The notes under the pieces are model-generated. The model did not search any database. It saw only the letters and a program-made list of their open reading frames with translations, and was not told where the DNA came from. From positions 1 through 64,000 of the forward strand of contig NZ_NFLT01000004.1 of NCBI RefSeq assembly GCF_002161055.1: a DNA stretch of 64,000 bases, given 5' to 3'. This DNA comes from Tyzzerella sp. An114. Lineage in GTDB: Bacteria; Bacillota; Clostridia; Lachnospirales; Anaerotignaceae. The number at the start of each line of letters is the position of its first letter. The stretch's first letter is position 1. Below, in pieces: positions 10,064 to 35,919 of this stretch. Both the position numbers and the translations under genes were made by a program.

Positions 10064-10087
10064 AAAAAGACCTATAAAGGTCTTTTT
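10064..10087 (-). terminator. Terminator of the uracil-DNA glycosylase-like gene
   Basis: Stem AAAAAGACCT/AGGTCTTTTT (10064-10073, 10078-10087); it overlaps the stop codon of the gene. Confidence 0.8.
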
Positions 10088-10652
10088 ATAATATCTCTTT
10101 CAATTTATTTAAGTCATCGTAATATGTATCTTTAAGACTTCTATTATATATTATTGCAGCTGGATGATATAAAGCAAATATCTTTTTACCATCATGCTCT
10201 GTTATTTTTCCGTGATAATCTCCTATAACAGCTTTATTATCATCAAGAACTGCTCTTAAAGGTGTGTTTCCCAAAGTAACTATAATATCAGGTTTTATAC
10301 TTTCAATTTCTTTCATTAAAAAAGGAGAAAAGAACTCAATTTCACTTTTGTTAGGTGTTCTATTTACAGGTTTTCCAGTTTTAGCACTTAAATTAAAAGG
10401 ACGTATTTTAACAACATTTGAAATATATATCTCCTCACGTTTAAGACCAACAATTTCAAGAAATTCACTTAAATTTTTTCCGGCTTTACCTACAAAAGGT
10501 CTCTCTTGTTTTTCCTCGTCTCCTCCAGGAGCTTCTCCAATCATAAATATTTTTGCCTTTTCAGTACCTTCTCCAAATACAATTACTCTATCAGAATAAT
10601 CAGACTCTTTAACTTTTTCAAGAAGTTCATTCTTTATATCTTCAATATTCAT
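10086..10652 (-). CDS. Uracil-DNA glycosylase superfamily protein (family 4-like)
   Basis: About 188 aa from ATG 10652, preceded by AAAGGGGAA; a TTG two codons earlier is less likely. Motifs of UDG family 4 are present: GEAPGGDEE with RPFVGKAG, NVVKIRP, and the C-terminal LYHPAA. Family members excise uracil from DNA. Family-4 enzymes normally carry four Cys ligands for a 4Fe-4S cluster; this protein contains no cysteine at all, and NVVKIRP has Ile where a ligand Cys is usual. It is therefore a cluster-free variant of uncertain activity. It is alone, between the long MATE leader and the DnaA-box region. Confidence 0.82.
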   Translation of the reverse strand: MNIEDIKNELLEKVKESDYSDRVIVFGEGTEKAKIFMIGEAPGGDEEKQERPFVGKAGKNLSEFLEIVGLKREEIYISNVVKIRPFNLSAKTGKPVNRTPNKSEIEFFSPFLMKEIESIKPDIIVTLGNTPLRAVLDDNKAVIGDYHGKITEHDGKKIFALYHPAAIIYNRSLKDTYYDDLNKLKEIL

Positions 10653-10689
10653 AAGCAAATTTCCCCTTTCTGTTTATAACATAACATAT

Positions 10690-10714
10690 TTTTCCACAAA
10701 ATACCTGTTGATAA
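10690..10714. repeat. Inverted DnaA-box pair 1
   Basis: TTTTCCACA (10690-10698, one mismatch to TTATCCACA), 7-bp spacer, TGTTGATAA (10706-10714, one mismatch to the reverse consensus). Confidence 0.6.
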
Positions 10715-10841
10715 AATATTTTTCGCCAAAAAACTTAACATTATATATCCAGTTTCAAAAAACATTGATTTTACAATATTTTTAGTATCTAAAATATTAT
10801 ATTTATAATAACTATATAGTATTATCCATAAGTTATTAACA

Positions 10842-10866
10842 TTATCCACAGAATACCTGTTGATAA
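10842..10866. repeat. Inverted DnaA-box pair 2
   Basis: Perfect TTATCCACA (10842-10850), 7-bp spacer, TGTTGATAA (10858-10866). Same orientation and geometry as pair 1, sharing AATACC in the spacer. Confidence 0.7.
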
Positions 10867-11053
10867 CTTTATTGTTATCAAAAAACCTTATATATTCTAT
10901 ATTTTTAATATATATGTTTTATATTTATTTAAAAATAAATACTTATGTTTACTTTTTTATACAAATTATAACACATATAATTATATATTTTTACTATTTT
11001 ATACATTTTAAATCAATTTTAAAATACTATGTTTTTACAACTATAAAAACTAT

Positions 11054-11078
11054 TTATCCACAGCATTTCTGTTGATAA
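11054..11078. repeat. Inverted DnaA-box pair 3
   Basis: Perfect TTATCCACA (11054-11062), 7-bp spacer, TGTTGATAA (11070-11078), immediately beyond the rhomboid stop codon. Confidence 0.7.
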
Positions 11079-11085
11079 TGTTTAA

Positions 11086-34324: not shown

Positions 34325-34578
34325 TATTGTTTACAACTCCTTTTGGTACTATTATATATATAAATATAAATTTTTTTAGTAGTGGTAGTAGTAGGGGCAT
34401 GTTAAAATGTGGATAACTATCGAAACCCCTTTAAAACAGTAAAAAAATGGCTATGGATAAATCTGTGCATATTTAATTATAAAACAAAAAGTTATCCACA
34501 AATTCAACATATTCACAGATTTTAAAAAGTTATTAACATTTTTTCAACATATTTTTCAACAACTTATCAACAGCCTAT
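34325..34578. other. oriC: Origin of replication, dnaA-dnaN part with unwinding element
   Basis: An AT-only stretch (about 34350-34377) followed by a TAG-trinucleotide array (34377-34394), a GGGGC cluster and a perfect DnaA box TGTGGATAA (34408-34416). Further boxes: TATGGATAA near 34452, TTATCCACA (34492-34500) and TTATCAACA (34564-34572). This is the Bacillus-type unwinding arrangement. Confidence 0.88.
34377..34394 (+). promoter_or_regulatory. DnaA-trio array at the unwinding site
   Basis: Six consecutive trinucleotides TAG TAG TGG TAG TAG TAG, then GGGGC and, 9 bp later, a DnaA box. DnaA filaments are known to engage such trios to open the duplex. One trio (TGG) deviates. Confidence 0.8.
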
Positions 34579-35919
34579 TTATTGACCTTTTATTCTCTTT
34601 TCAAGCTCAAGAATTGTTTTCTGAAGAGAAGGATCTTTTTCAAGTTCTTTTTCTATTTTTGTACAAGCATGAATTACTGTAGAGTGGTCTCGACCACCAA
34701 AACGCTCACCAATTTTAGGTAAAGAAATATCAAGAATTTTTCTTGAAAGATACATAGCAATTTGTCGTGGATATGCTATGTTTTTAGGCTTTTTGCTTCC
34801 TGTAATATCTTCAGTACGTATATTATAGTAATTTGCAACAACTTCCTGAATAAGTTCAGGAGTTATCTGTGTAGTAGTTTTATCACTAAAAATATCTTTA
34901 AGAGCATTTTCTGCAAGTTCTATTGTAATTTGTTGATTTGTAAGAGAGGCATAAGCAACAATTCTTGTCAAAGCCCCTTCAAGTTCACGAATATTTGAAA
35001 CAATGCATTTTGCAATAAAAGCCATAACTTCATTAGGAACAGTCAAACCATCAGTATCAGCTTTTTTTTGTAAAATAGCAATTCTTGTTTCATAATCAGG
35101 TGGTTGAATATCAGCTATAAGTCCCCATTCAAAACGACTTCTAAGTCTATCCTCAAGAGTTTTTATTTCTTTTGGAGGACGGTCTGAAGAAATTATAATC
35201 TGTTTGTTTGACTCATGGAGAGTGTTAAATGTGTGGAAAAACTCCTCCTGAGTGCTTTCTTTTTGTGATATAAATTGTATATCATCTATAAGAAGAACAT
35301 CAATATTTCTGTATTTATTTCTAAATTCTTCATTTTTATTGTTCTTGATAGAATTTATAAGCTCATTTGTAAAAGTTTCACTTGAAGCATAAAGCACTTT
35401 TTTATCTGGATTATGTTCAAGTATGTAGTGGGCTATGGAATGCATAAGATGTGTTTTTCCAAGACCAACACCACCATAAAGGAAAAGAGGATTGTAAGCT
35501 CCAGCAGGTGATTCAGCTACAGCAAGTGAAGCTGCATGAGCCATACGATTACTGTTACCTACAACAAAAGAGCTAAAAACATATCTAGGATTAAGATTTC
35601 CTACACTTTCAACTGTATTTACTGATTTTTTGTGACTGGACTTAGTTGGATTATTTTTTTCTTTAAGTTCGTCTTCTGTGAAAATAATTACATTATATTC
35701 TTTTGAAGTTATCTTTTTAATAGAATTTTTTATAAGTGACATATATCTTTTTTCAATCATTTCCTTATAAAAAGAGTCTCCAATCTTGAGAATAAAGTTA
35801 TTTCCCTCTATTTCAAGAGGAACCAAAGGCATTATCCAGGTTTCAAAACTTACAAGAGAAGAACTTTCCTCCTCAATAATTTTTAAAGCCTCATTCCAGT
35901 ATTCTGTGACCTGGTTCAT
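34579..35919 (-). CDS. dnaA: Chromosomal replication initiator protein DnaA
   Basis: 446 aa. Domain I (1-80), a short linker, an AAA+ domain with Walker [13 protein letters not shown] and Walker [10 protein letters not shown], and the DNA-binding domain IV with the signature [19 protein letters not shown]. It binds the DnaA boxes on both sides of its gene and opens the DNA at the trio array. The start ATG follows AAGGAGGAA. Boxes in its own promoter region suggest autoregulation. Confidence 0.98.

Follow-up and report, generated by a model that had tools for sequence, protein, structure and literature searches.

In Tyzzerella sp. An114, whose genome is available as 2.75 Mb in 78 contigs, a 427-bp gap separates a family-4 uracil-DNA glycosylase gene (udg) from a rhomboid-family gene and is on balance best regarded as an oriC-proximal, non-coding, putative DnaA-binding control element. 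In it, DnaA boxes form inverted pairs whose two members are always 7 bp apart, and a third box stands at two fixed offsets; this arrangement is kept across genera and recurs in other families at other loci, and the conservation of exact spacing suggests a control site for chromosome replication. The features lie in the window, the whole stretch of 64,000 nucleotides that was analysed (positions 1 to 64,000 of contig NZ_NFLT01000004.1), and are as follows.

10086..10658, minus strand: family-4 uracil-DNA glycosylase gene (udg), downstream of the element; TIGR00758 over cut-off
10659..11085, no strand: whole non-coding intergenic element, the rhomboid-udg gap, 427 bp
10690..10714, plus strand: inverted DnaA-box pair 1, udg-proximal, TTTTCCACA-N7-TGTTGATAA; same position (-57/-41) in relative G001
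10822..10830, plus strand: box at offset +36 of pair 2, completing the 0/16/36 three-box module; TTATCCATA, 1 mismatch; offset shared by 25 genomes of 7 genera
10833..10841, plus strand: third box at offset +25 of pair 2 (udg orientation), abutting the strong box; TTATTAACA, 2 mismatches; offset shared by 17 genomes of 8 genera
10842..10866, plus strand: inverted DnaA-box pair 2, TTATCCACA-N7-TGTTGATAA
10867..11053, no strand: A/T-rich stretch between pairs 2 and 3, 89% A/T, a level not kept in relatives
11054..11078, plus strand: inverted DnaA-box pair 3, adjoining the rhomboid stop codon, TTATCCACA-N7-TGTTGATAA
11086..12123, minus strand: rhomboid-family membrane protein gene, upstream of the element; matches below curated cut-offs
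34579..35919, minus strand: dnaA, about 24 kb from the element, as marker of the origin region; TIGR00362 over cut-off

Three units of the form TTATCMACA-N7-TGTTGATAA begin at 10690, 10842 and 11054, all in one orientation and with the positions and sequences that a preliminary description of this DNA had given them; the second half-site is a TTATCAACA variant in each. The A/T-rich DNA that the same description placed between pairs 2 and 3 is borne out: 10867-11053 is 89% A/T, a value reached by 2 of the 6381 windows of equal length in the 64 kb, and the whole gap is 83%. The stated distance of about 24 kb between the locus and oriC is right, as dnaA is located at 34579-35919 with perfect DnaA boxes on both sides, at 34408, 34492, 35956 and 36158. 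Absent from that account are the boxes at 10822 and 10833, which stand in line with the middle pair. Pair 2 has both the +25 and the +36 box, and the outer pairs 1 and 3 have neither.

With up to one mismatch to TTATNCACA-N7-TGTNGATAA, a search of both strands of the whole genome returned only the three units, and three other places appeared at two mismatches. The genome scan proposed earlier as a test of the locus thus finds the unit unique at zero or one mismatch and not common elsewhere. Up to three mismatches gave 102 matches against 246 for the reversed pattern and so no excess, and the degenerate form TTNTCMACA-N7-TGTKGANAA, with no mismatch allowed, again matched only the three units, with none for its reversed control. 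The gap at 10659-11085 holds seven boxes within one mismatch of TTATCCACA and three N7 pairs in its 427 bp, compared to a mean of 0.20 boxes, a maximum of two and no N7 pairs in 2000 dinucleotide shuffles of the same sequence, which makes it a significant DnaA-box cluster outside oriC. Perfect copies of TTATCCACA number 39 genome-wide, against 87 for the reversed word, and, though scarce, they cluster at the element and at dnaA.

Relatives carry the same unit. A pattern search found it in 40 of the 58 genomes of the family (Anaerotignaceae), in one to three copies each, with no match for the reversed pattern, and the comparison with relatives at the same locus, which the preliminary description had also proposed, places it in the same intergenic position in both congeners examined and in most of the family. 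At 25 of the 29 loci listed for the 39 matching relatives, udg and rhomboid both adjoin the unit; at one locus udg alone does so, at two rhomboid alone, and at one neither. A second N7 site in G021 (C172) has no adjoining udg or rhomboid homologue, and a match in G025 (C45; L029), likewise without udg or rhomboid beside it, is located inside an apparent purine-synthesis gene (by sequence) and was treated as chance. When 1 kb upstream of udg is considered, an inverted N7 pair is present in 45 of the 53 family genomes with a clear udg, where 60 shuffles of each gave an expectation of 0.0; the other five of the 58 (G011, G013, G023, G034 and G042) were left out, and G022 was counted once, without its second udg copy. 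Its two udg loci, on contig C1 at 311097 and 464870 (L111 and L121), are about 154 kb apart and identical in UDG protein and in box pattern. Box spacings of 0 to 20 bp were compared, with 45 genomes at N7, 10 at N6 and at most five at any other.

The eight genomes of the 53 in which the N7 pair is missing are G031, G033, G035, G041, G043, G044, G054 and G055. G031 and G033 retain the three-box pattern with a degenerate first box, the upstream sequence of G035 amounts to only 266 bp, and G054 is a plain exception, in which udg stands 9 kb from dnaA and boxes with up to one mismatch are lacking. In G041, G043, G044 and G055 an extra gene occupies the space before udg. This gene, between rhomboid and udg, encodes about 220-240 amino acids and overlaps the udg start as placed in three of the four genomes; it coincides with loss of the DnaA boxes in G041, G043 and G044 and with their displacement in G055. 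Alignment of the rhomboid-udg gap in Anaerotignum (genus g6) and genus g3 also contains conserved blocks outside the boxes, such as those around TATGCAACACAAGATGAATA in g6 and most of g3 and around ATTGGGGTATACATAA in g6, which are possibly promoter or protein sites.

The third box emerged when the surroundings of all N7 pairs were searched, in 314 offset-strand bins, for boxes with up to two mismatches. Boxes in the same direction occur at +36 in 25 genomes of seven genera and at +25 in 17 genomes of eight genera, whilst the next best bins reach four genera and the mean of the 314 bins is 0.25; the two offsets were chosen after seeing the data. One or other is occupied in 41 of the 45 genomes with an N7 pair, and the difference of 11 bp between them would correspond to about one helical turn.

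Allowing up to two mismatches, the 0/16/36 pattern was found in 41 of 392 genomes of the order Lachnospirales, with none for the reversed control: 31 of the 58 in the family, seven in family f22 and one each in f5, f21 and f25, the f21 and f25 matches having two mismatches each. The pattern is absent from most sampled families of the order. In the phylum sample only five of 398 genomes match, the own genome and four of the distant family f62, and presence throughout the phylum was rejected. The f62 sites are not counted as the same element because three of the four need two mismatches in the middle box; the match in G663 is exact.

Distances to dnaA were taken in the 24 family genomes with dnaA and udg (in G023, the element) on one contig, genomes with the two on separate contigs being left out. 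The pair or the three-box pattern is present in 22 of these, about 4-124 kb from dnaA, a range that draft contigs bias toward short values; the second udg copy of G022 (202 kb) was not counted. The two without a pair are G044, where udg is about 350 kb from dnaA, and G054 (9 kb). Within the single-contig chromosomes G029, G024, G023 and G031 the element is about 30-124 kb from dnaA. The f22 element is 97 kb away in the single-contig chromosome G205 and 92-105 kb away in the three genomes with both on one contig, and in G106, G176 and G075 an N7 pair adjoins dnaA itself (named from sequence), in the origin region. Since strand and replichore of the element vary between genera, gene-order inertia with inversions round the origin is a possible cause of this closeness, which may be nothing other than plain gene-order inertia.

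As imperfect palindromes, the pairs could in principle act in RNA, and the preliminary description offered as an alternative a hairpin in the ends of the udg and rhomboid mRNAs. Both genes are on the minus strand, so that the gap is the 3' side of rhomboid and the 5' side of udg, not two mRNA ends. As regards hairpins or terminators where the rhomboid mRNA ends, folding of the three pairs as 35-mers on both strands (six sequences) is modest, at -3.1 to -8.1 kcal/mol with z of -1.2 to -3.9, and the half-sites vary mostly without compensation. In 58 family pairs with boxes within one mismatch, the udg-near box always has C at position 6, and the other box has A in 26 and C in 32, with no A/A pair; looser matching gave 64 pairs, of which 28 are A/C, 33 C/C, two T/C and one A/A (compensated, in G001). 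The A/C pairs set A against G centrally and so break the stem, a mismatch that 26 of the 58 pairs keep, which makes a hairpin unlikely. No terminator was called at the element, and an Rfam scan of it up to E 1 gave no match, thereby yielding no known RNA family. With neither a called terminator nor general compensatory pairing of a stem, this reading is scarcely credible. The DnaA boxes beside an A/T-rich stretch would also suit a secondary or relic replication origin, which we consider very improbable. A 187-bp stretch of at least 88% A/T is present in one of the 51 testable family gaps, the own one, and of at least 80% in 14, among them those of two congeners (85 and 88%); a conserved A/T-rich unwinding stretch beside the boxes is thus lacking among these gaps. 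Furthermore, cumulative GC skew across the window reaches its minimum at about 35 kb, where dnaA is, and not at 11 kb. Of the earlier proposal of a titration or origin-like locus, then, a regular DnaA-box locus outside oriC has good support and the likeness to an origin does not.

The position of the element upstream of udg in most family genomes counts against a control locus, as it also fits gene regulation: DnaA would act as a transcription factor at a udg operator and couple a DNA-repair gene to the replication cycle. In support of such an operator are the predominance of udg at the listed loci given above and the start of the proximal module about 60-80 bp before udg in most g2, g3 and g6 genomes, and the E. 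coli DnaA regulon derived from ChIP is reported to include nucleotide-synthesis and repair genes (PMC11317965). In the six f22 genomes examined the module occupies a different locus, where its neighbours include a thymidine kinase gene in four genomes and a TetR-type gene in five, and two more direct boxes are near it in five of the six; apart from rhomboid and udg, genes at the relatives' loci were named from sequence alone. However, the element is not always tied to a gene it might regulate. It remains without an adjoining thymidine kinase gene in f22 genomes G191 and G223; in G023, where udg was not found and the gene that follows encodes a short-chain dehydrogenase, the 0/16/36 module is exact; in G034, which has no clear udg, the pair is between the convergent 3' ends of rhomboid and a P-type ATPase gene; and in G055 the boxes (an N6 pair, not N7) adjoin rhomboid, with a further gene inserted before udg. 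The N7 pair is 357-534 bp from udg in g13, g14 and g17. Across Clostridia at large, an N7 pair is located within 700 bp of udg at 23 of the 80 named udg loci listed (of 353 confirmed), and the udg loci of Caloramator, Thermotalea and Christensenella have no box with up to one mismatch within that distance, so the element was rejected as a trait of udg across the class. Because the element outlives udg, a udg operator is not accepted as the sole explanation and appears rather unlikely, although an added role in udg expression may exist where udg still adjoins it. Passive titration, in which a high-affinity sink near oriC would resemble the B. subtilis clusters and the geometry would serve affinity only, gains from the presence of a strong-box cluster near oriC and from the six DnaA-box clusters of B. 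subtilis, whose joint deletion is reported to cause early initiation (PMC5295017, PMC13220808). Against it, by argument rather than test, a sink seems not to need a fixed 7-bp inverted spacing, nor a third box whose two offsets differ by one helical turn, and the recurrence of the same geometry in other families would not seem to be required of it. Fixed inverted spacing with a phased third box is hard to explain by titration alone, which we think rather improbable, although titration by a complex of fixed shape is possible.

For the preferred reading, a DnaA-binding control element, a plausible sequence of events can be proposed. The boxes of the inverted pair have their ACA ends facing, which would place two DnaA molecules face to face, docked on the pair, and a third DnaA would join them in line, giving one defined DnaA complex rather than independent sinks. 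Being near oriC, the site would be duplicated early in each round, and the element might then determine the supply of active DnaA for the following initiation, either by retaining DnaA or by altering its nucleotide state as the E. coli DARS loci do. Counting against this reading are the eight of the 53 genomes that lack the N7 pair at the chosen threshold, the two outer own pairs, which have no third box, the after-the-fact choice of the offsets, and the rarity of the three-box pattern outside the order and its absence from most families sampled within it.

The closest known counterparts include the DARS1 and DARS2 cores of E. coli. Like them, the clostridial element is non-coding, is outside oriC and consists of three DnaA boxes, in which box I is inverted relative to box II and box III follows box II in the same direction; box II is also the best match to the consensus in both. 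This order and orientation are found in 41 of the 45 genomes with an N7 pair and at own pair 2, but not at the two outer own pairs. Both cores, as read in the K-12 sequence of E. coli, have boxes I and II inverted 5 bp apart and boxes II and III in line 3 bp apart, as opposed to 7 and 11 bp (or 7 and 0) in the clostridial element, where the 5- and 3-bp core spacings were not found. We take the K-12 DARS1 core to be the one between bioD and uvrB, and the DARS2 core presumably the one about 0.5 kb before mutH, the sites being placed partly by the map positions in PMC5295017. With the order and orientation of DARS and other spacings, the candidate element may work like DARS and is not filed as DARS, exact membership being ruled out by the spacing. 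In E. coli, the opposed boxes I and II are described as holding ADP-DnaA head to head, with release of ADP, and this opposed arrangement is the reported working part of DARS (PMC8682772); DARS2 is further reported to work with IHF and Fis (PMC4245941, PMC8682772). A DARS-like locus in Clostridia that reactivates (or inactivates) DnaA, at which the face-to-face pair and the in-line third DnaA would change the nucleotide state and which would be kept near oriC independently of its neighbours, is a tentative possibility. If true, it would be a chromosomal DnaA switch in a Gram-positive lineage, such as is reportedly missing from B. subtilis: the 2026 review PMC13220808, in the sections available, gives datA, DARS1 and DARS2 as absent from B. 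subtilis and the regulators that balance DnaA-ADP/ATP interconversion there as not known. An element of rigid geometry across Clostridia genera and several families provides a concrete 45-bp DNA on which the nucleotide-state question can be asked in a Gram-positive lineage.

Other known DnaA-binding loci are also comparable in part. The DnaA-box clusters of B. subtilis are also intergenic regions in a member of the Bacillota that reportedly bind DnaA with high affinity outside oriC (PMC4447404, PMC5295017), but adjoin other genes (ywlC, ywcI, gcp-ydiF, trmE, yqeG-sda and yyzF), and such clusters are said, in the text available of one of these papers, to have no significant role in B. subtilis initiation (PMC5295017). 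datA of E. coli is likewise a DnaA-box cluster outside oriC, and is reportedly always near oriC in that species (PMC4585315), but is set apart by its description as an IHF-dependent locus of about 1 kb with five boxes (PMC5295017). The tandem double DnaA boxes at E. coli ChIP sites resemble the element in that a defined two-box spacing is reported to govern binding (PMC11317965), although they are 2-3 bp apart in tandem rather than inverted with 7 bp. A paper on the C. difficile origin discusses DnaA-box clusters, in the sections available, only at oriC (PMC7561715). Among the matches listed for open-access literature on DnaA boxes in Clostridia, with udg and in Anaerotignum, and on DnaA-reactivating sites in Firmicutes, the element was not found described.

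Further box arrangements were seen elsewhere. In the own genome, one intergenic gap holds two perfect TTATCCACA boxes in one direction, at a distance of 224 bp (L238; C5:24665 and 24889), the only other perfect-box pair less than 1 kb apart besides those at the element and in the dnaA region. In three f62 genomes, two perfect boxes face each other 27 bp apart beside apparent suf-type genes (by sequence; L235, L236 and L237), perhaps another DnaA element. On the single-contig chromosome of G024, three boxes accompany an inverted N3 DnaA-box pair (L239; C1:18202) that lies beyond dnaA, about 17 kb away on its other side.
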